Shown here: piece by piece, positions 717 through 38,793 of the stretch
How positions within the stretch are numbered: position 1 is the stretch's first letter
How the letters are laid out: each line of letters begins with the position of its first letter
DNA from: Verrucomicrobiia bacterium
GTDB taxonomy: Bacteria > Verrucomicrobiota > Verrucomicrobiia > Verrucomicrobiales > Akkermansiaceae
NCBI GenBank assembly: GCA_947462875.1
Contig: CANHQJ010000020.1
Coordinates: 1-64,000 of the forward strand
DNA: 64,000 bases
Reading direction: 5' to 3'
Program-made: the position numbers and the translations under genes
Notes under the pieces: generated by a model
The model's database searches: none
Told to the model about the DNA's origin: nothing
The model's input: only the letters and a program-made list of their open reading frames with translations

Positions 717-2876
717 ATGTCGTCCGACCCCAATAGCCCTGATCGCCAATATCCGCTGCAACGCACGCGGAATATCGGCATCTGTGCGCACATTGATGCG
801 GGCAAGACGACCTTGACGGAGCGGATTCTGTTCTACACCGGCATGATCCACAAGATCGGCGAAGTGCACGATGGTGCCGCTACGACCGACTGGATGGAGC
901 AGGAAAAAGAGCGCGGTATCACGATTACCTCCGCCGCCGTCACCACCGAGTGGTGGCAGCGCAAGGAAGAGGGCGTGACCAAGCTCTTCACCGAGGAAAA
1001 AATGCGCGTCAACATCATCGACACCCCCGGCCACGTGGACTTCACGGCCGAGGTGGAGCGCTCCCTGCGCGTGCTCGATGGGGCGATTGTCGTGTTCTGT
1101 GGCGTCGCCGGGGTGCAACCGCAAACGGAAACCGTGTGGCGCCAGGCGACCAAATACAATGTCCCGCGCCTCGTGTTCGTCAACAAGATGGACCGCACCG
1201 GTGCCAACTTCCAAAGTGTCTTTGAGGAAGTAAAAGAAAAACTCGGCGCGAATGCCGTGCGCATCCTGATCCCGATCGGTGCGGAAGACCAGCTCAAGGG
1301 GCAAATCGACGTCGTCAACCAGAAAGCTGTTTATTACAATGACGACGACAAATTTGGCTCAACCTACACGGTCCAGGACCTCGACGAAGAGCAAAACCTG
1401 ATCGCTCAGGAAGCCTACGCGGAACTGCTGGATGCCGTCGCCAGTGTCGATGAGCAAGTCGGTGAAAAATTCCTGATGGAAGAGCCGATCAGCAAGGAAG
1501 ACCTCAAACAAGGCATCCGCCGCGCCACCATCGCCAACCACCTCGTTCCTGTTGCCGGTGGCTCCGCTTTCAAAAACAAAGGCGTCCAGTATCTCCTCGA
1601 TGCCGTCGCCGATTACCTGCCCAACCCGCTCGATATCCCCTCCGCCATCGGCATGGATCCGGACAATGAAGAGCGCAAGATCGAGGTCATCACGGACGAC
1701 AATCAAAAATTCGTCTCGCTCGCTTTCAAACTCTGGGCTGACAAATTCGTCGGCAAACTCGTTTTCTTCCGCGTTTATTCCGGAAAAATCAAAAAAGGCG
1801 ACACGGTTTACAACCCGCGCACCAGACGCGCCGAACGCGTCGGCCGCCTGATCCGCATCCAGTCCAACACCCACACGGATGTCGATTGCTGCTACTCCGG
1901 CGACATCGCCGCGATGGTTGGCATCAAGAACGTCACCACCGGCGACACCCTCGCCGCCGAAAACCACGATGTGGTGCTCGAGCCTCCCACTTTCCCGGAA
2001 CCCGTCATCTCGATGGCAGTGGAACCGAAAACCAAAGCCGACCAAGAAAAACTGGCCCTCGCCCTTGGTCGTCTGTCGGAAGAAGATCCGACCTTCATGG
2101 TCAAGACCGATGAAGAAACCGGCCAGACCATCATTTCCGGCATGGGCGAACTCCACCTGGAGATCATCGTCGATCGCCTCAAGCGCGAGTTCAAAGTCGA
2201 GGCCAACACCGGCGCTCCACAAATCGCCTACCGCGAAACGATCACCGCCCCCGCCGCTGCCGAAGGCAAGCTGGTCAAACAATCCGGTGGCCGCGGCCAA
2301 TACGGTCACGTTCGTCTCACCGTCGCCCCGAACGAAAAAGGCAAGGGCCTGACGATCGAAAACAAAATTGTCGGTGGAGAAATCCCCAAAGAATACGTGA
2401 ACGCCGTTTACAAGGGCGTCAATGAATCGATGTCGAATGGCATCATCGCCGGCTACCCCGTGATCGATGTGCATGTGGACATCCTCGGTGGTTCCTACCA
2501 CGATGTGGACTCGAACGAAAACGCCTTCACCATGGCGGCGATTTTCGGCATGAAAGAAGCTTTCAAGAAGGCCAAGCCGATCCTGCTCGAACCCATCATG
2601 GCCGTGGAAGTCTCCACTCCGGAAGACTACCAGGGCGATGTCATGGGCGACCTCAACCGTCGTCGCGGCCAAATCACCAGCATCGATACCAAAGGAAAAC
2701 TCGCCGTGGTCCGCTGCGCCGTTCCTCTCAAGGAAATGTTCGGCTACTCTACGGCCGTTCGCACACTCTCCTCCGGTCGCGCCTCCTACTCGATGACACC
2801 CTCACACTTCGAACAAGTGCCCAACAACATTGTCGATGAAATCGTCAGTGAACGCGGCGGCACCGCTCGTTACTAA
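717..2876 (+). CDS. fusA: Translation elongation factor G
   Basis: 719 residues with all five EF-G domains. The GTPase motifs are AHIDAGKT (residues 24-31), DTPGHVDF near 102 and NKMD near 157; the switch-I region carries RGITITSAA. Domain IV contains the GGRGQYGHV stretch that reaches the decoding centre. It catalyses GTP-dependent translocation and, with RRF, ribosome recycling. It follows rpsG by 36 bases. The usual next gene, tuf, is absent: rpsJ follows directly after 39 bases. No Shine-Dalgarno sequence precedes the ATG. Confidence 0.98.
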
Positions 2877-2915
2877 TATCCTCGCTAACCTACCAATCCT
2901 CACCTTCTCCTCGTT

Positions 2916-3224
2916 ATGGAAAATCAGAAAATACGCATCCGACTCCGCGCTTTCGATCATCGCGCCGTGGACAAATCCGCCGCCGAAATCGTCGAAACCG
3001 CAAAACGCACTGGCGCCAAAGTCTCCGGACCGATCCCGCTTCCGACCCGCATTGAAAAATTCAGCGTCAACCGCTCGGTTCACGTGAACAAAAAGTCGGC
3101 TGAACAATTCGAAATCCGCACCCACAAGCGCTTGCTCGACATCGTAGATCCTACCGCCCGCACGGTTGATGAGTTGAAAAAACTCAATCTTCCCGCCGGT
3201 GTGGACATTTCCATCCGCATCTAA
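2916..3224 (+). CDS. rpsJ: 30S ribosomal protein S10
   Basis: 102 residues, canonical length, with the [17 protein letters not shown] start and the conserved RTHKRLLDI block in the second half. S10 is part of the 30S head and, in other bacteria, of NusB/NusE antitermination complexes. It opens the S10 block directly after fusA; no separate promoter is evident in the 39-base gap, so str and S10 genes probably form one transcript. Confidence 0.97.
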
Positions 3225-3256
3225 CTCATTTTTTCAACTCTATCTAATTTAACGTT

Positions 3257-3895
3257 ATGCCACTAGGACTTATCGGCAAGAAACTCGGAATGACCCGTCT
3301 GTTTGACGAGGCCACGCAAGCAATGATCCCCGTGACCGTTGTGGACGTGCAAGGCAACACCTATCTGCAGCACAAAACCGCGGAGAAGGAAGGTTACAAA
3401 GCCGTGCAAGTCGGCTTCGACGACCAGAAAAAAGCGCAGCGCGTCAACAAGGCGGACATGGGCCATTTCACCAAGGCCGGCTCCACGCCGAAGCGCAAAC
3501 TCCAGGAGTTCCGTCTCCGCGGCAGCGAGACCATCCCCGACACCCATCCCGGTGCGGAGCTTTTCACCGCCGGTCAATTCGTTGACGTCATCGGCACCAG
3601 CAAAGGTCACGGCTTCACCGGCGTTGTGAAACGCTACAAGTTCGGCGGTCTGCGTATGACCCACGGTTCGATGATGCACCGCAGAACGGGTGCCATCGGT
3701 TGCCGCTCCACTCCCGGTCGCGTTTGGAAAAACCAAAAGATGCCTGGTCAGGACGGTAACAAACAACGCACCGTGCAGAACCTGAAAGTCGTCGCCGTGC
3801 GCCCTGAAGATGGCGTGCTGTTGATCTCCGGAGCCATCCCCGGCGCCAAAGGTAGCTACGTCACCGTCCGTCCCGCCAAGAAAAAGTCTGCGTAA
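3257..3895 (+). CDS. rplC: 50S ribosomal protein L3
   Basis: 212 residues starting PLGLIGKKLGMTRLFDE, with the central GTSKGHGFTGVVKRYKF loop (about residues 114-131) that reaches towards the peptidyl transferase centre, and the GQ.GN..RTVQNL motif. In E. coli the Gln in the latter is methylated by PrmB. L3 starts 50S assembly. It sits between rpsJ and rplD in standard S10 order. Confidence 0.97.
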   Translation: MPLGLIGKKLGMTRLFDEATQAMIPVTVVDVQGNTYLQHKTAEKEGYKAVQVGFDDQKKAQRVNKADMGHFTKAGSTPKRKLQEFRLRGSETIPDTHPGAELFTAGQFVDVIGTSKGHGFTGVVKRYKFGGLRMTHGSMMHRRTGAIGCRSTPGRVWKNQKMPGQDGNKQRTVQNLKVVAVRPEDGVLLISGAIPGAKGSYVTVRPAKKKSA

Positions 3896-3932
3896 GTAGC
3901 CTGAATCGAACCACGAACCATCATTTCACGTC

Positions 3933-4541
3933 ATGTCTTCCCAAACTCTTACCGTAGAAGCCGCCGAGGCCGCCCACATGCTCCTCGCGCCCGCCGATAA
4001 AGGCACCCAGGCTGTTCACGACCTCATCACGGCGTATCGTGCCAACCGTCGCACCGGTTCCGCACATACCAAAACCCGTGGCGAAGTGTCCGGCAACAAC
4101 AAGAAAATCTACAAGCAAAAAGGTACCGGTGGCGCCCGCCACGGTGACAAACGCGCTCCGATCTTTGTCGGCGGTGGCGTGGTCTTCGGCCCCCGCGCTT
4201 GCGACTACACCAAAAAAGTCAGCAAAACCACCCGCAAGCTGGCCCTGCGCCGCGTGCTGGGTGACAACATCCGCGCTGGCTCGATCAAGACGATTGAGTC
4301 GTTTGAAATCGCCGATGGCAAAACGAAGTCCTTCGTTGCCGCCGTTGCCGCGCTTTCCACGGCCCGCCGCATTCTCATCATCGCCGATTCGTTCACGGAA
4401 CAAACCTACCTCGCCGGCCGCAACGTGCAAAACGTGCTGTTGATGACCGCCGCGGAAGTGAACGTAGAACACATCATGCTCCACAACGATATCTTCGTCG
4501 TCGGCAGCGCCCTCACAACCCTCGCCAAACGCACCGCTTAA
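3933..4541 (+). CDS. rplD: 50S ribosomal protein L4
   Basis: 202 residues. The extended loop with [19 protein letters not shown] and [15 protein letters not shown] is plain at about residues 48-85; this loop lines the exit tunnel. The N-terminal beta-strand region diverges from E. coli, which is common. In enterobacteria L4 represses its own operon; no comparable leader could be judged here. It is 5 bases from rplW, indicating tight coupling. Confidence 0.96.
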
Positions 4542-4546
4542 TTGTT

Positions 4547-4831
4547 ATGAAAGATCTTTTCCACGTCATCAAAAACGTCCGCATGAGCGAGAAGGCCACG
4601 TACCTGAACGAACTCAACAATGAGATCGTGCTCGATGTGGATCCCCACGCGAACAAACTCGAAATCAAGCAAGCGGTGGAGACACTCCTTGGCAAGAAGG
4701 TCGCCGACGTGCGCACCCTCAACTGCCGGGGCAAAGCCAAGCGCCGCCGCCGTGCCGACGAAGGACGCACCAACCACATCAAAAAAGCGATCGTGCGCCT
4801 GAAAGAAGGCGAGAAACTCGACCTCGTGTAA
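4547..4831 (+). CDS. rplW: 50S ribosomal protein L23
   Basis: 94 residues, normal for bacterial L23, with SEKATYL near residue 14 and the VETLLGKKVADVRTLNCRGK region followed by the basic RRRRADEGR loop. L23 surrounds the tunnel exit and is the docking site of trigger factor and SRP. It is encoded immediately after rplD and 41 bases before rplB. Confidence 0.96.
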   Translation: MKDLFHVIKNVRMSEKATYLNELNNEIVLDVDPHANKLEIKQAVETLLGKKVADVRTLNCRGKAKRRRRADEGRTNHIKKAIVRLKEGEKLDLV

Positions 4832-8678: not shown

Positions 8679-8948
8679 ATGAGCGATTCCGCCACCAACA
8701 CTCCTGCCACCAAACGCAAAACACGCGTCGGCCTCGTCGTTTCCGACAAGATGGACAAAACCATCGTCGTCGAATACGTCGCCCGCGTTCCGCACCCACG
8801 CTTCAACAAAATCATCAAGCAGACGAAGAAATTCTACGTGCACGATGAAAAAGGTGAGGCCAAAGTCGGCGACAAAGTTCGCATCGTGGAATCACGCCCT
8901 ACCTCGAAATTAAAGCGTTGGGCGCTTGACTCCATCCTCACTCACTAA
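8679..8948 (+). CDS. rpsQ: 30S ribosomal protein S17
   Basis: 89 residues with the OB-fold motif GLVVSDKMDKTIVVEY (about residues 17-32), the RVPHPRFNKIIK segment and the conserved GDKVRIVESRPTSKLKRW end. S17 is a primary binder of the 16S rRNA 5' domain. A poly-T stretch rather than a Shine-Dalgarno sequence precedes the ATG. Confidence 0.97.
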   Translation: MSDSATNTPATKRKTRVGLVVSDKMDKTIVVEYVARVPHPRFNKIIKQTKKFYVHDEKGEAKVGDKVRIVESRPTSKLKRWALDSILTH

Positions 8949-8992
8949 TACACCTCCGCCCGTTCGTTCACCACCTCACACTTTATTGACTC

Positions 8993-9358
8993 ATGCTCCA
9001 GATGGAATCTTCCGTAGTCGTCGCCGATAACACCGGCGCGAAAAGCGCCAAAATGATTGGCGTCATTGGCAAACGCACCCGCTTTGCCCACGTTGGCGAT
9101 GTGATCACCGCCCACATCCGCGACTCGATCCCCACCGCCTCGGTGAAAAAAGGATCCGTAGTCAAGGCCGTGGTCGTGCGCACCAGCGCCCCGATCCGCC
9201 GCGCCGATGGCTCGGTGCTTCGTTTCGACACCAACGCCATTGTCATCATCGACAAAGACAACAACCCGCGCGGCACCCGTATCTTCGGCCCCGTGGCTCG
9301 TGAACTTCGCGAAAAGTCGTTCATGAAGATCGTGTCCCTCGCCCCTGAAGTCGTCTAA
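8993..9358 (+). CDS. rplN: 50S ribosomal protein L14
   Basis: 121 residues, canonical length and ends: [17 protein letters not shown] at the start and the [25 protein letters not shown] block at the end. L14 lies at the subunit interface and is the binding site of RsfS. First gene after rpsQ, 44 bases downstream. Confidence 0.97.
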
Positions 9359-32514: not shown

Positions 32515-33531
32515 TCAGCCGATTATATTCACCAAATCTCTCACCAGAGGCGGGCCTTGATAAATGAAAGAGGTGTAGATCTGCAGCAGCGTCGCGCCGG
32601 CATCGAGTTTTTCCCGCGCATCCGCCACCGAGGAAATCCCACCGACGCCGATGATGGGAATGCGCCCTTGCAGACGGGTGGCGAAACGACGGATCACGTG
32701 CGTGCTGAGCGTTTTCACGGGAGGTCCGGACAAACCACCCGCTTGCGCATGAAGCGGATGATGCTCCACACCTACGCGCGACAGCGTCGTGTTCGTCGCA
32801 ATGAGGCCATCGAGCCCGCCCGCGAGAAACACCTCCGCCAGCGCATCGATGTGGTCATCGGCCAGGTCCGGCGCGACCTTGAAAGCGATGGGCACATACT
32901 TGCCGTGCTGTTGTTGCAGGAGCTTTTGATCGGCCTTGAGCGTGGCTAACAATTTCGCGGTGCTCTCCGCATTTTGCAAATCGCGCAGGCCTGGCGTGTT
33001 CGGCGAGGAAAGATTGACCGTCACGTAATCGGCCACCGGATAGGCGGCGCGCAGGCATTGCAGGTAATCGTCATCCGCTTTTTCATTCGGCGTGTCCTTG
33101 TTTTTGCCGATGTTGAATCCGATGATGCCGGCGTAATCGCGGGTGCCGCGCACATTGAGCACGCCTTGCTCCATGCCCGGATTGTTGAAGCCCATGCGGT
33201 TGATGATGGACTCCTCCTCGATGAGACGGAACAAACGCGGCTTGGGATTTCCCGCCTGCGGACGCGGCGTGATGGTGCCGATTTCGATGAAGCCGAAGCC
33301 GAGGCGCCCGAGCGCGTCGATGGTATTGCCCTCCTTGTCGAGTCCCGCGGCGAGACCGATGCGATTGGGGAATTTCAGTCCCATCACCTCAACGGGCGAG
33401 ATGCATTCGGCGGCAGGAAACAGCAAGCGCAGCAGCCCGGATTTTTCCATCAGGCGCAGCGAGGCGAGCGAAAAATGATGCGCGGTTTCCGCATTGAGGC
33501 GAAAGAGCAGGTCTCGAAACAAAGGATACAC
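32515..33531 (-). CDS. pyrD: Dihydroorotate dehydrogenase (quinone), class 2
   Basis: 338 residues. The N-terminal membrane-associating helix (MYPLFRDLLFRLNAETAHHFSL) marks the class 2, quinone-linked type. FMN-binding and active-site parts: GLAAGLDKEGNTIDALGRLGFGFIEIGT, NRMGFNNPG, and VNLSSPNTPGLRDLQ, where the Ser serves as catalytic base in class 2 enzymes. It performs the fourth step of pyrimidine synthesis. It stands alone among pyr genes here. Confidence 0.96.
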   Translation of the reverse strand: MYPLFRDLLFRLNAETAHHFSLASLRLMEKSGLLRLLFPAAECISPVEVMGLKFPNRIGLAAGLDKEGNTIDALGRLGFGFIEIGTITPRPQAGNPKPRLFRLIEEESIINRMGFNNPGMEQGVLNVRGTRDYAGIIGFNIGKNKDTPNEKADDDYLQCLRAAYPVADYVTVNLSSPNTPGLRDLQNAESTAKLLATLKADQKLLQQQHGKYVPIAFKVAPDLADDHIDALAEVFLAGGLDGLIATNTTLSRVGVEHHPLHAQAGGLSGPPVKTLSTHVIRRFATRLQGRIPIIGVGGISSVADAREKLDAGATLLQIYTSFIYQGPPLVRDLVNIIG

Positions 33532-33566
33532 GCGCGCAGACTAGCGCAAGATTCCGGTTGGTCGAT

Positions 33567-33623
33567 AGCGGAATGTGGAATTTTGTGCACCATTCCGCTG
33601 ATCTGACAGATCGGTCGGATCTG
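33567..33623. terminator. Hairpins between the methyltransferase and pyrD genes
   Basis: Two inverted repeats lie in the 98-base gap: 33567-33575 with 33591-33599 (AGCGGAATG / CATTCCGCT) and 33607-33612 with 33618-33623 (CAGATC / GATCTG). The second lies 7 bases after the methyltransferase stop. No T-run is present, so terminator function is uncertain. Confidence 0.4.
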
Positions 33624-33629
33624 CCGGAA

Positions 33630-34481
33630 TCACAAAGGCCTCGAGCAAACAAACGCGCCCCATTCGAGCACGCTGCCTGGCTCCCACGCGATGCGCTGGT
33701 CGAGGGATGTGGCAAAGCGCTCCAGCATGGCGGGCGGGACACCAGAAGCCATCAACCGCTCGCCATCCATGGCGATCTTCGCCCGCATGCGGCGGAAATT
33801 TTCGCACAAGTGCGGCGTCCAGTCGTGGTGCTCGATGCGCTCGAACCCCGCTTTTTCCAGCGCCCTTTTGTGCTCGGCGGCGGTGCTCCAGTGCGTGACG
33901 GCATTCACGTTGCGAAAGACTTCCGCCGCAGCGGCAGGAGCGGCGGCGGCGAGCAGGATATCGGAAAACACCATCACGCCGCCCGGGCGCAGCGCGCGAT
34001 AGGCGCCACGCAGAGTCGCGGCAAGATCCTGCGCATGGCACAGCGCTTCCTGGCTCCATACCAAATCAAAGAGCTCCTCCCATTCATCAGGCAGTTGCTC
34101 GAAGGAACCGGTCCAGGTGTGAATCAACCCTCCGATGCCGAGAGCGCCGGCGATGGCGTGATTTTCGCTATTGTGGTGCTCGCATAGTTCCGCACAAGTG
34201 ATGTGCGCGCCGGTGCGCTGTGCCAACCAATGCGCCGAACCACCGGGCCCCGCACCGAGATCGAGGATGGTCTGCGGCAATCCGCTGCCACTGTGGCGCA
34301 GGGCGATTTCCAGCAAGCGCAGCGTGGATTTTTCCGTCGCCTGCCGCATGGACGTGGCATCATTTTCATACATGCCGTAGTGAATCACCGGCATGCCATC
34401 GCCCATCACGCTGCGATAAAACACCGCTCCGGATTCGGGCGAATACTGGGAGGCGATCTGGCGATGATGTTCCGTGTTCAT
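33630..34481 (-). CDS. SAM-dependent class I methyltransferase
   Basis: 283 residues. The SAM-binding motif I is ILDLGAGPGGSAHWLA (about 72-87), the acidic end of strand 2 is AELCEHH, and motif near 150 reads DLVWSQEALCHAQD, followed by LRPGGVMVFSD. The N-terminal lead-in (FYRSVMGDGMPVIHYGMYEND) resembles small-molecule C- or O-methyltransferases of the tocopherol/glycine-sarcosine type, so the substrate is probably a small molecule or lipid. It overlaps the upstream membrane protein gene by four bases (ATGA), indicating translational coupling. Confidence 0.88.
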   Translation of the reverse strand: MNTEHHRQIASQYSPESGAVFYRSVMGDGMPVIHYGMYENDATSMRQATEKSTLRLLEIALRHSGSGLPQTILDLGAGPGGSAHWLAQRTGAHITCAELCEHHNSENHAIAGALGIGGLIHTWTGSFEQLPDEWEELFDLVWSQEALCHAQDLAATLRGAYRALRPGGVMVFSDILLAAAAPAAAAEVFRNVNAVTHWSTAAEHKRALEKAGFERIEHHDWTPHLCENFRRMRAKIAMDGERLMASGVPPAMLERFATSLDQRIAWEPGSVLEWGAFVCSRPL

Positions 34482-36184
34482 GCGTGTGGTGAGAGAATGC
34501 AGCCGAGAGGTTCCTCGGAAATCAGGTGCAGTCCCGTGTGATGATAGAACGTCTTGATGCGCCAGATCGTGACAGACGCGATCGTTTCGTCAAAATCAAA
34601 GCACGGCCATTCTTCCGCACGCAAGGGACACAAATCCGGTGCCAGATCTTCCCCCGGGATATGCGGCCAGCGCATCAACCAGCGAAACCACCACCGATCC
34701 TTGTGATGATTCACGTTCGCCATCCACCCGGCGAGGGGCGATGCCACATGCGTTTCGCCCACCGTCATGCTCCATGCCGGCGGCGAGGGGCTCGGGTGCA
34801 ATGGCTCCGCATCGTCCGGCCCGTCCATCAGCCGATAGAGAAAATCCCGGTCTTCGCGATGGATCGTCAGCCCCCACACCCCCGTCCGCGCGATGCCTCG
34901 GTCTCTCGGCGCGGCGGGATCCAGCCCGGTGTGTTGCCCGAGAATCATCAGATGCGTGTGGATGTCGGTGAGGAAGGTGTCGTAGGGCGAGAAGCGCGGA
35001 ACCGGCAAGGTGTATCGTTTTCCCGCAGTGGTTTCCACCGTGTAGGAAAACATCCGCATCAGCGGCGTATCCCACCACGCCATCAGGTGATCCGCCGCAT
35101 CGGCAAAACGAGCCCGGTGCCCGCCCGTCCCCTGCTGCTGGAACGATGCGAGCATGCCCAGACGCAGCCAGCCGACCCATGCCGCCGCCAGCGGCATCAC
35201 CAGCACACTCGCCAGCAGCGCCTTGGCGCCGAAAATATCGCGCCCATCACACCACAAGATCAGTCCGATCAGGAAAAGATGATTCACCACATACTCGTAG
35301 GCCAACAGCCCCGTGCTCAGAAACACGATGCCATGAAACACCGCGGTCGCCGCCAGAATCACGACCGCGAGCCGCGCATCCGCGAGCAGAAACACCCACG
35401 AAACTTCCAGCAACCACACGCCCGCACAGAGCCACCGCCGCTTGCGCGCGATCCATTGGCACAGGGTGAAACAGCGCTGTTTGTCCAGGCCCAGCGTCCA
35501 TCCGCGCAGCCAGGCGTTCGCGAACAGGCACTCGATCCGGTTCTCGCGCATCCAGGAAAACCAGCGCGGCCCCAATACACATTTCGCCACGGCATGATGA
35601 AAATACGTCGATGCCTGATAGAGCAGGCACGCGGCGATCATCACGTCTTCACGGATCGGAAACGCTCCGCCGCACCAGCCCGGCAATCCTTGCAGCGCCA
35701 TCGCGGCCATGATCACACACAGCGACGCACGGACAAACTCATAGCCTAACAAATTCGAATACCCAGGCCCGAGGCGCCAGGACGCCACACGATACTGCAA
35801 GGCACAACAAGCGATCACACAGGGATAAAGCCACACCGGCTGATACCAGACCGCAGCCGCCAGTAGCAGAATCACCAAGCGGTCTCCCATGAAATGCTTT
35901 CCCCGCCCCGTGGCACCCATACGCCCCACCGCACCCAGTGCGAGCAGCGCGACCAGTGTCATCACCATCGCGCGCAAGTGCGGCATCTCCTGCCAGGACC
36001 ATCGATACAACGACGCCATCACCAGCCCATGCAGCAGCCACGGCACCGGTTGCCGCAGCAAGGATCCGATGGCGGAAGAGGTCGTCTGATCCATCCTCTC
36101 GCCGTGACTCCAGCACACGCGATAGACCGCCAGCGACAGCGCCCGCCCTAACAGAAATCCCCCTATGATCCACAGAACCTCCAT
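34478..36184 (-). CDS. Polytopic membrane protein with soluble C-terminal domain (HTTM-like)
   Basis: 568 residues. Residues 1-360 contain about ten hydrophobic segments with many Trp and Arg residues in loops; residues 380-568 are soluble and rich in Trp, His and Pro (VNHHKDRWWFRWLMRWPHIPGED). The arrangement recalls HTTM/vitamin K-dependent gamma-carboxylase-like proteins, but I do not see a diagnostic motif and give this only as a possibility. It is coupled to the methyltransferase and lies downstream of the BAHD-like gene, so the three probably act on one substrate at the membrane. Confidence 0.8.
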   Translation of the reverse strand: MEVLWIIGGFLLGRALSLAVYRVCWSHGERMDQTTSSAIGSLLRQPVPWLLHGLVMASLYRWSWQEMPHLRAMVMTLVALLALGAVGRMGATGRGKHFMGDRLVILLLAAAVWYQPVWLYPCVIACCALQYRVASWRLGPGYSNLLGYEFVRASLCVIMAAMALQGLPGWCGGAFPIREDVMIAACLLYQASTYFHHAVAKCVLGPRWFSWMRENRIECLFANAWLRGWTLGLDKQRCFTLCQWIARKRRWLCAGVWLLEVSWVFLLADARLAVVILAATAVFHGIVFLSTGLLAYEYVVNHLFLIGLILWCDGRDIFGAKALLASVLVMPLAAAWVGWLRLGMLASFQQQGTGGHRARFADAADHLMAWWDTPLMRMFSYTVETTAGKRYTLPVPRFSPYDTFLTDIHTHLMILGQHTGLDPAAPRDRGIARTGVWGLTIHREDRDFLYRLMDGPDDAEPLHPSPSPPAWSMTVGETHVASPLAGWMANVNHHKDRWWFRWLMRWPHIPGEDLAPDLCPLRAEEWPCFDFDETIASVTIWRIKTFYHHTGLHLISEEPLGCILSPHA

Positions 36185-36244
36185 GCCCGTTTCCCGCAGT
36201 CAACCGCATTTCCTCTTATGCGTCGAGACCAGACAGCGGGACTT

Positions 36245-36313
36245 ATGGCATGCGCATTCGGATTGACCGCATGGACGTTAGCGCACCATCTCGTTCCTAT
36301 TTTCGCATGCCAT
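36245..36313. repeat. Spaced inverted repeat upstream of the membrane-protein gene
   Basis: Ten-base arms ATGGCATGCG (36245-36254) and CGCATGCCAT (36304-36313) lie 49 bases apart in the 155-base gap between the BAHD-like gene and the membrane-protein gene. It may be a regulator site or a weak transcription barrier. Confidence 0.4.
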
Positions 36314-36339
36314 CGTATGGTTGAAATTCGTCGAAGCTT

Positions 36340-37581
36340 TCATTTGCCATGGTTTAGGCCGTTATCCACCCCACCACACCAAACTTCCGCTGAGTGAAAC
36401 ATCGATTTCATATTTTCTAACAAAAATTGGTTCGTCGTCGCGGGCAGGCTCAGCTCGATCATCAGAGAGGCGGCATCGGGGGTGAAGGCGATGCGGATGC
36501 CGGAGGAATTGCGCGAGAGCAACATGGCGTAGCGCGGCAGACCGATGCCGAAATCCGTGCCCTTGACGGCATGGGGCACGAGGTTGAGCTGCAAGGCCTG
36601 CTGCTCCAGTCCCAGCCAGCGGCAGGGCGTACCGCGTGCTTCGACCTCTTTCAAGCGGCGGAAGGTTTCTGATATGCGGGCGAAACCGCCGCGCGTGGCC
36701 ACATTCCGCAACAGCCGGGTGAGATGCTGCGGGTCCTCATGACGGAGCGGAAAATGCAAAAAGCATCCGGCGTTTCCAGTGTAATGAGGCGGCAGATCAT
36801 GGGTACCGCGGGCATCACACCACAAGGCCACTTCCTGTGTTTGCGGCTGGCACTGCGCGACCCATGAGCAAAGCAACGCCGCGAGGCGCAGTCGGGCATC
36901 CAGCACCGATGTCGCCTCCAGTGCGGACACCAGCTCCGCCACGGGCAGCGCCACGATCAGCGGCTGGCTCCGCGCGAGCGCATCACCGCTCCAGACACTT
37001 TCCGTTTGATGGGCCGAAGCCCCATACCCCTGCGGCGGCGGATCGCAGGAATCCGCGGAAACGGCAACATGGACCGGCCGCTCATGCACCACCGTGCCCG
37101 CCTCCACTCCGCGCGTGGCGGCCGTGCATTGATGAATGAACCATGCCAGGCCGGCGCCATCCAGCACCGCGTGGGAGACACGCATGCCGATCACACAAAT
37201 CCCCGCACGCGGCATGAGTGTCAGCCGTGTTTGCCACAACGAGCCCGACGCACCCGCCGGCAGAGCCTGGGGAATCCACAGCCGCGATTGTTTCGACAAC
37301 GGCCACTGTCTCAGCTCCTCCCACGCATCCCTATCATCGCTCTCCGCCACCTCCCAGGTGATCTCACCGGTGACGGGCACGATGCGCTCGCGGTGCAACA
37401 CTCCCGTCAGATGCGGAAATGTCTCAAGTCCCTTGCGCAGCGATGCCGCCACGGCCTCCGGCGAAAGCAGGCCCTCGTAGCCCATGACCAGTTCAATATC
37501 GGCGGGCAGGCGGTCATCCTCACACAGGCTGAGGGGAGAAAAATCCCGGGCCGGACAGAGGACTTCACGCCGGAGGTTCAT
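36340..37581 (-). CDS. BAHD-like acyltransferase
   Basis: 413 residues. It carries both hallmarks of BAHD acyltransferases: HAVLD (the HxxxD catalytic motif, H137 and D141) inside RVSHAVLDGAGLAWF, and DFGIG (residues 343-347), the counterpart of the DFGWG structural motif, at the expected spacing near the C terminus. A TGNAG segment near 268 matches the GN motif between them. BAHD enzymes transfer acyl groups from CoA esters to alcohols or amines and are best known from plants and fungi; condensation domains share HxxxD but not DFGWG. The gene starts 3 bases after hisH, so it is in the his operon. The acceptor is unknown. Confidence 0.8.
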   Translation of the reverse strand: MNLRREVLCPARDFSPLSLCEDDRLPADIELVMGYEGLLSPEAVAASLRKGLETFPHLTGVLHRERIVPVTGEITWEVAESDDRDAWEELRQWPLSKQSRLWIPQALPAGASGSLWQTRLTLMPRAGICVIGMRVSHAVLDGAGLAWFIHQCTAATRGVEAGTVVHERPVHVAVSADSCDPPPQGYGASAHQTESVWSGDALARSQPLIVALPVAELVSALEATSVLDARLRLAALLCSWVAQCQPQTQEVALWCDARGTHDLPPHYTGNAGCFLHFPLRHEDPQHLTRLLRNVATRGGFARISETFRRLKEVEARGTPCRWLGLEQQALQLNLVPHAVKGTDFGIGLPRYAMLLSRNSSGIRIAFTPDAASLMIELSLPATTNQFLLENMKSMFHSAEVWCGGVDNGLNHGK

Positions 37582-37584
37582 GAC

Positions 37585-38196
37585 TCACTGCGCCAGAAAA
37601 TTCCGCAACAAGCGCAGGCCGCTGTCCTGGCTTTTTTCCGGGTGGAACTGCACGGCCCAGAGATTGTCGCGGATCACGGCGGCGGCGAAGGTTTCCTGGT
37701 AGTCGGTGGTGGCGGCGATGATGGCGGTATCGACCGGCGCGGGGAAATACGAGTGCACAAAATAAAAATACGGATCCGTGCCCAGCCCTGCCCAGCACGG
37801 ATGCTGCGGATCGGTGAGGTGCGTGGAGTTCCAGCCCATGTGCGGGATTTTTTTCCCGGGCTGAAAGCGTTTCACCTGCCCTTGCAGGATGCCGAGCCCG
37901 GCGATGCCCGGACTTTCCTCGCTGCCCTCGAACAGCAATTGATAGCCCACGCAGATGCCCAAAAACGGCACGCCTGCCGCGATGGCGCGACGCACCGGCT
38001 CGGCGAGGCCGCGGTGGGTCAGTTGTTCCATCGAATCGCCAAACGACCCCACGCCCGGCAGAATCACGCGGGCCGGGTTTTCCGGAAAATCCTCGCCCTT
38101 GCTGACGATCAGCACCTCGGCCTCCAGGCTGTGCAGGGCATTCGCCACGCTGCGCAAATTCCCTGCGCCGTAATCGATCAGAACGGTAGCGGACAT
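37585..38196 (-). CDS. hisH: Imidazole glycerol phosphate synthase, glutaminase subunit
   Basis: 203 residues with the class I glutaminase triad: Cys in GICVGYQLLFEGSE (near residue 83), and His/Glu in VQFHPEKSQ near 186-188. It supplies ammonia to HisF in the fifth step of histidine synthesis. hisF is not adjacent in this window. It follows hisB by 9 bases and is followed by the BAHD-like gene after 3 bases. Confidence 0.97.
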   Translation of the reverse strand: MSATVLIDYGAGNLRSVANALHSLEAEVLIVSKGEDFPENPARVILPGVGSFGDSMEQLTHRGLAEPVRRAIAAGVPFLGICVGYQLLFEGSEESPGIAGLGILQGQVKRFQPGKKIPHMGWNSTHLTDPQHPCWAGLGTDPYFYFVHSYFPAPVDTAIIAATTDYQETFAAAVIRDNLWAVQFHPEKSQDSGLRLLRNFLAQ

Positions 38197-38205
38197 GGGA
38201 TTTGG

Positions 38206-38793
38206 TTAGAGCGCTTCTTTGGTGGAGGGCACGCCTTTCACGCGCGGATCGATCGCGACCGCCGCTCGCAGCGCGCGCGCGATGCCTTTGAAAATCGCCT
38301 CGGCAATGTGGTGTCCATCGCGACCGTAGAGCAGCTCGACGTGCAGGTTGCAGCGCAGGTTGCTGGCCAGGGCACGGCAGAACTCCTCGGTGAGCGTGAG
38401 CGGGAAATTCGGAGCCGATGCCGTATCCGGCGGAGTGCGGAATTCCAGATGCGGGCGGTTCGAAAGATCGATCACCACGCGCGCCAGCGTTTCGTCCATC
38501 GGCAGATACGCATGACCATAACGGGTGATACCCTCTTTGCTGCCGAGAGCCTCGCGCAAGGCATCGCCCAGCACAATCGCGGTGTCCTCCACGGTGTGGT
38601 GCGCATCGATGTGCAAATCGCCGATCGTTTTCACGTTCAGGTCGATCAGACTGTGGCGGGAAAACAGCGTGAGCATGTGATCGAAAAAGCCGATGCCGGT
38701 TTCGATTATGGAATTTCCCGAGCCATCGAGGTCGAGGGACAAAACGATGTCCGTCTCCGCCGTCTTGCGCTTTTGTGTGGAAGTGCGTGCCAT
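38206..38793 (-). CDS. hisB: Imidazoleglycerol-phosphate dehydratase
   Basis: 195 residues, monofunctional type without the HisN-like phosphatase domain. The metal-binding motifs GFFDHML, DAHHTVED and, near the end, DGHHIAEAIFKG are complete. It catalyses the sixth step of histidine synthesis. First gene of the hisB-hisH-BAHD-like unit; a candidate promoter lies 46 bases upstream. Confidence 0.97.
   Translation of the reverse strand: MARTSTQKRKTAETDIVLSLDLDGSGNSIIETGIGFFDHMLTLFSRHSLIDLNVKTIGDLHIDAHHTVEDTAIVLGDALREALGSKEGITRYGHAYLPMDETLARVVIDLSNRPHLEFRTPPDTASAPNFPLTLTEEFCRALASNLRCNLHVELLYGRDGHHIAEAIFKGIARALRAAVAIDPRVKGVPSTKEAL

Follow-up and report, generated by a model that had tools for sequence, protein, structure and literature searches.

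A three-gene cassette was identified in a stretch of 64,000 nucleotides (hereafter, the window) from a Verrucomicrobiia bacterium of the family Akkermansiaceae (NCBI GenBank assembly GCA_947462875.1, contig CANHQJ010000020.1, positions 1 to 64,000). A preliminary description of this DNA had placed a set of three genes at positions 33630–37581, and this interval corresponds exactly to the cassette, all of which is encoded on the reverse strand. The first gene, ACYL (36340–37581), encodes a protein of 413 residues that we describe below as a putative divergent BAHD-type acyltransferase. The second, MEMB (34478–36184), encodes a polytopic membrane protein of 568 residues whose predicted fold probably resembles that of GGCX, the vitamin K-dependent gamma-carboxylase of animals, and the third, MTASE (33630–34481), encodes an S-adenosylmethionine (SAM)-dependent methyltransferase of 283 residues. 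On the reverse strand the genes read in the order hisB, hisH, ACYL, MEMB, MTASE, and pyrD. The gene coordinates agree with the earlier claims that the ATG of ACYL lies 3 bases past the stop codon of hisH and that MEMB shares 4 bases with MTASE. ACYL and MEMB are separated by 155 bases in the window.

The distribution of the cassette was analyzed in overlapping samples of 145 genomes from the window's family, 386 genomes at the order level, 387 genomes at the phylum level, and 61 genomes of a second genus. ACYL was detected in three of the 145 same-family genomes, and MEMB was detected in those same three. The MEMB profile gave six matches in the 386 order-level genomes, four of which were strong, and in the 387 phylum-level genomes it recovered, apart from the window's own genome, one short match and two distant relatives that were full-length. 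In the second genus, two matches were found among the 61 genomes. Five genomes were counted as carrying the cassette: the window's own (G000), G042, and G080 (locus L010), which belong to the window's genus, and G729 (L012) and G746 (L011), which belong to the second genus. The loci L011 and L012 were assigned to their genomes from their positions on the contigs. The cassette is therefore carried by 3 of the 10 genomes of the window's genus and 2 of the 61 genomes of the second. Partial matches in G165 (52 positions, with internal stops) and in G583 and G009 (43–47 positions) were excluded from this count, and the distant MEMB relatives in G433 and G256 were tallied separately. Wherever MEMB gave a strong match (five genomes), ACYL, MEMB, and MTASE were neighbors in identical order, and we therefore consider that the grouping did not arise by chance. 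The conserved linkage on which the preliminary description had made its grouping depend was thus observed. ACYL and MEMB overlap by 4 bases in four of the five cassettes, the window being the exception (for L011, the overlap uses a chosen start, and the longest frame begins 21 bases earlier). MEMB and MTASE also overlap in four of the five, the exception being G042, with a gap of 9 bases. The three genes form a genuine unit, although a sparsely distributed one.

BAHD enzymes are a main acylation family of plant specialized metabolism. The motifs previously pointed out in the 413-residue protein are present, i.e., HxxxD as HAVLD at residues 137–141 and DFGIG from residue 343. HxxxD was kept in all five ACYL sequences; DFGxG was found in four of them, never with W, and was absent from L012. 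A D-x-R-G..P..T-G-N segment at residues 256–270 resembles the corresponding BAHD segment and is in register with the PDB profile matches, where it is not significant. When a profile of the five ACYL members was searched against PDB (E up to 10), 17 sequences were matched with a best E of 8.7e-5, and from general knowledge of the named enzymes we take all 17 to be BAHD enzymes. The ACYL of L012 scored 31.1 bits with the Pfam model PF02458, above the cut-off of 22.7 bits; in a further search of 145 phylum and 14 control genomes, no sequence exceeded this cut-off. The AlphaFold2 model of ACYL has a predicted two-domain fold like that of chloramphenicol acetyltransferase (CAT), and the structures nearest to it are those of BAHD enzymes. 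The best rows obtained with Foldseek were plant and fungal BAHD enzymes. The best VIA-align row was plant HCT, with a Z of 13.8 and a root-mean-square deviation (rmsd) of 12.6 over 317 aligned residues, and rows 1–32 of the best 50 are, by name or general knowledge, BAHD-family proteins (a family missing from the VIA-align or Foldseek rows is not thereby excluded). Structure prediction had been proposed earlier as a check on the BAHD assignment, and its outcome favors that assignment, with BAHD structures ranking first and the condensation domains of non-ribosomal peptide synthetases (NRPSs), which have the same superfamily fold, ranking lower. ACYL shares HxxxD, DFGxG, its length, and its predicted two-domain fold with BAHD acyltransferases such as plant HCT, the spermidine/agmatine hydroxycinnamoyl transferases, and fungal TRI101. 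However, it is only 9–18% identical to them in the listed structural alignments, it has DFGIG rather than DFGWG, it is bacterial, and the DFG is gone in one of the five members. Based on these sequence and model comparisons, we call ACYL a putative divergent BAHD-type acyltransferase.

The solved structure nearest to MTASE was 2o57 (E = 3.4e-27), which is named a putative sarcosine dimethylglycine methyltransferase and has an IHxGxY segment in common with MTASE. Phosphoethanolamine N-methyltransferases and MitM were also among the nearest structures. MTASE shares the SAM-dependent domain with these enzymes and with the sarcosine/dimethylglycine N-methyltransferases over most of its length, and N-methylation by MTASE is likely. 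The identification of MTASE as a sarcosine/dimethylglycine N-methyltransferase itself was rejected, because it scored 107.9 bits with the corresponding model, NF041675, for which the cut-off is 550.

The membrane protein, MEMB, was not fitted by any Pfam or NCBIfam model, and its four PDB sequence matches were insignificant. Lys201, His284, Asp372, and the S399-P400-x-D402 segment were invariant in all seven aligned members. The predicted structure had a mean predicted local distance difference test (pLDDT) score of 73.9 and a predicted template modeling (pTM) score of 0.79. In the VIA-align comparison of this model, rows 1–9 of the best 50 were all GGCX (Z = 8.8–8.3, rmsd = 5.1–8.4, 245–317 aligned residues), and the next row was that of the CLC channels (Z = 6.5). 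The resemblance to GGCX is a new element, which was missing from the preliminary description.

We also compared MEMB with the bacterial HTTM proteins (PF05090), which were listed in 72 of 160 genomes. The HTTM alignment was built from proteins at PF05090 matches in genomes belonging to the order of the window; 29 of the 34 loci (frames of 250–600 residues) were kept. A seven-member MEMB profile matched the HTTM profile with a score of 41.7 (E = 2.6e-4, probability 42), compared with 19.2 for the reversed control and at most 25.2 for 150 block shuffles. The window's MEMB together with that of L019, the distant relative in G256, scored 50.3, and L019 alone matched the HTTM profile with an E of 1.1e-8 in a seven-sequence search. 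In the profile alignment, the register of which depends on L019, the invariant K201 of MEMB falls on the HTTM lysine and H284 falls on the FH segment. In human GGCX, the residue aligned with this HTTM lysine is K218, the second of a KK pair. K218 is reported to be the base of GGCX that deprotonates the quinol, and the K218A substitution to abolish catalysis (PMC12589487). The region of GGCX His160 lies outside the MEMB–HTTM profile alignment, and no invariant histidine was seen there by eye; the lack of an obvious counterpart of His160 in MEMB argues for another substrate. No gene for a peptide substrate, as would be comparable to GGCX, was recognized by eye near the cassettes. The PF05090 model did not match the window's MEMB (E up to 1) or those of L010, L012, and the distant relatives L018 and L019 (E up to 10), and MEMB was therefore not filed as a member of HTTM; nor was PF05090 found in the window's own genome. 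MEMB may thus resemble GGCX and HTTM in its predicted fold and, in the L019-dependent alignment, in the lysine position and the FH segment, but differs from them in the points just described and is shorter than GGCX. We consider that MEMB probably represents a new family with a GGCX-like predicted fold, and both this fold and the register of Lys201 are supported but not firm.

Because a BAHD-type acyltransferase is supported and the three-gene linkage is conserved, our best guess is a tailoring cassette whose proteins acylate and methylate a small molecule and modify it at the membrane, and which is gained, moved, or lost as a unit; we regard this reading as fairly probable. A small-molecule or lipid tailoring pathway had already been suggested in the preliminary description, and this part of the suggestion is retained on the same two grounds, whereas the link that it made to histidine or an imidazole intermediate is not. 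In the proposed scheme, ACYL would use the BAHD mechanism, with His137 and Asp141, to move the acyl moiety of a thioester (probably an acyl-CoA) onto the molecule being tailored. MTASE would methylate a small molecule or a lipid head group, perhaps at an amine or a hydroxyl, and MEMB would work on the substrate or product within the membrane. The GGCX-like predicted fold and the invariant Lys201 suggest that MEMB is more than a carrier and acts as an enzyme, by deprotonation, oxidation, or carboxylation. We infer that all three proteins act on one molecule, and we place the order of the steps, the acyl-CoA donor, and catalysis by MEMB on the same footing.

Several observations weigh against this interpretation. 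The ACYLs of the window (18.2 bits), L007 (20.7 bits), L010 (20.0 bits), and L011 (18.5 bits) scored below the PF02458 cut-off, the pLDDT of the ACYL model was weak (62.5), and 49 of the best 50 VIA-align rows for ACYL had an rmsd of at least 9.6; in the remaining row it was 3.2, for 159 residues in the first half. For the MEMB model, Foldseek detected nothing significant (best E = 0.071), and according to the warning issued by VIA-align, a Z of 8.8 is within chance reach of helical bundles. The five cassette MEMBs alone gave no signal against HTTM (score 16.2), so the sequence link between MEMB and HTTM depends on the bridging L019, which has no match in Pfam. Furthermore, the structural and sequence evidence for MEMB is not fully independent, because L018 and L019 are in the alignment behind the model. 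The ACYL profile matched only the window's own genome among the 387 phylum-level genomes. ACYL was absent from the vicinity of L018 and L019, where the MTASE-profile matches were weak and non-adjacent (E = 0.0049 and 0.0088), and a protein of the MEMB type can therefore do without its ACYL and MTASE partners.

The two full-length distant relatives were matched by the MEMB profile with an E of 2.5e-14 (G433) and 1.7e-6 (G256). By eye, the relative in G433 is surrounded by sulfotransferase- and asparagine-synthase-like genes, and L019 in G256 is surrounded by NRPS-type genes, which we counted in favor of a tailoring function. The cluster around L019 (5993–16001 of that locus) also contains HupE-like and ornithine cyclodeaminase-like genes, both of which were tested, together with genes that by eye are acyl-CoA dehydrogenase-like, AMP-ligase-like, and NRPS-like.

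It is also conceivable, though we think it rather unlikely, that MEMB is not an enzyme and instead serves to export, flip, or hold what ACYL and MTASE produce. Its polytopic nature would suit such a role, and the weak Foldseek rows of its model (all with E above 0.07) are mostly transporters; however, these rows are insignificant, with a probability of at most 0.15, and GGCX heads the VIA-align rows instead. The conservation of K201, H284, D372, and S399-P400-x-D402 in seven of seven members likewise suits catalysis, without proving it. A transporter identity for MEMB taken from Foldseek was rejected, the rows being insignificant.

If MEMB is an enzyme of the tailoring cassette, its chemistry might, by analogy with GGCX, depend on oxygen and a reduced quinone and be initiated by Lys201 acting as the base, in the carboxylation or oxidation of a substrate that is acylated and methylated by the partner proteins. 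In this version, which we regard as speculative and unlikely, the cassette would represent a bacterial chemistry related to that of vitamin K but directed at small molecules. PF02621 (MqnA/MqnD of the futalosine route) was absent from all five cassette genomes, two of them incomplete (82% completeness for G080 and 66% for G746), and the classical Men route was not searched. This absence argues against the simplest use of a quinone, unless the classical menaquinone route is present.

For ACYL, the competing assignment is that of an NRPS condensation-type enzyme, for which the acyl donor would be a carrier protein and not CoA. Condensation domains do occur in the lists of similar folds, first appearing at rank 16 with Foldseek and at row 33 with VIA-align (Z = 11.3). 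Moreover, the two other sub-threshold PF02458 matches in the 145 phylum genomes are of the condensation type by eye, and low PF02458 scores alone are therefore insufficient to assign the class of ACYL. However, the PDB matches of the ACYL profile described above were all BAHD enzymes by our classification, no Pfam condensation family was detected in the window's ACYL (E up to 1) or in the other four (E up to 10), and no carrier-protein gene was seen by eye among the open reading frames (ORFs) of at least 70 residues around four of the cassettes. We consider this assignment improbable. A 565-residue ORF with a sub-threshold PF02458 match in G202 (L036, 730–2427) appears by eye to encode a fusion of an acyl carrier and a condensation-like domain.

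The cassette proteins have diverged much more than the proteins encoded beside them. Between the window and G042, the identity was 94% for hisB, 84% for hisH, and 91% for pyrD, but 48.5% for ACYL, 50% for MEMB, and 64% for MTASE, and the ACYL of G042 resembles its L011 counterpart (57%) more closely than the ACYL of the window. The cassette is thus either fast-evolving or exchanged between genomes. This divergence, the patchy distribution, and the context of L010, with a CRISPR-like array and a restriction-methylase-like fragment, would fit a competition or defense module. Nevertheless, PADLOC gave no match for ACYL or MEMB, and its only match for MTASE was to the methyltransferase portion of mad2 (residues 56–177, E = 1.4e-14). 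Housekeeping genes surround the cassette in the window and in G042, and we consider a defense role very improbable. In L010 (G080), the cassette at 4745 is approximately 0.6 kb from the CRISPR-like array (3517–4124, with repeats at a spacing of approximately 69 bases); an ORF with a Cas6 match and a partial Cas1 match lies beside the array (2158–4124 together), and the type III methylase-like fragment follows the cassette (8679–9323).

In the window, the cassette is preceded by hisB (38206–38793, reverse strand; IGPD match, E = 2.4e-61) and hisH (37585–38196, reverse strand; GATase) and followed by the dihydroorotate dehydrogenase gene pyrD (32515–33531, reverse strand). The cassette lies between hisH and pyrD in only two of the five genomes, the window and G042. 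The fragmented genome G080 carries the cassette on contig 80 but hisB and hisH on contig 498, and ACYL was not found in the 5.4 kb downstream of hisH. For L011 and L012, hisB, hisH, and pyrD were not found within the 13.6 kb examined. The congener G023 has hisB, hisH, and pyrD, with a hisH–pyrD gap of 117 bases by the longest frames. The start of this gap matches the start of the window's ACYL at 37 of 46 bases (80%; 2 bases of spacer and 44 of the gene; E = 3e-7 in a two-sequence search). This remnant is most simply read as a deletion scar, which would mean that the cassette was formerly present and was lost with its neighbors left intact. The histidine genes and pyrD are bystanders, and the earlier proposal that cotranscription might tie the cassette to histidine or an imidazole intermediate was not supported: the 3-base spacing from hisH in the window is compatible with cotranscription, and the spacing is 41 bases in G042, but given the two-in-five occurrence of the histidine context and the retention in G023 of all three neighbors with ACYL as a remnant only, an action of the cassette on such a compound has a very low probability. 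In G033 (L039, 2474–4057), the hisH–pyrD gap contains an unrelated reverse-strand open stretch of 459 residues with membrane segments, which is apolipoprotein N-acyltransferase-like by eye. In the congeners G088, G051, G059, G010, and G067, pyrD was not found in the stretch examined beside hisH.

Each part of the cassette is a distant variant of a familiar type, and the combination and the MEMB family appear to be new. A bacterial BAHD-type gene strictly linked to genes for a membrane protein with a GGCX-like predicted fold and an N-methyltransferase-like enzyme offers a small, testable three-gene pathway, and the cassette is a lead to the role of GGCX-like proteins in bacteria. Among the matches listed from the open-licence literature, no description of such a cassette, of the MEMB family, or of a bacterial BAHD enzyme was found; in the available portion of one of these texts, BAHD is named solely in the reference list (PMC11999265).

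The GC content of the cassette genes was 61.6–63.0% and their GC content at third codon positions (GC3) was 72.5–74.9%, compared with 59.2–62.4% and 72.3–78.9%, respectively, for hisB, hisH, and pyrD. From this comparison there is no sign of a foreign composition or recent import of the cassette. A plasmid origin was rejected, because tblastn with MEMB gave no match among 72,556 plasmid records, a search that did not extend to phage records or viral contigs. The promoter scan detected one site when 1.8 were expected, and 12 terminator-like sites were found when 5.0 were expected. The stretch upstream of pyrD (approximately 33532–33595 in the window) is similar by eye in the window, G042, G023, and G033, whether or not the cassette is present, which suggests that pyrD has its own regulatory region.

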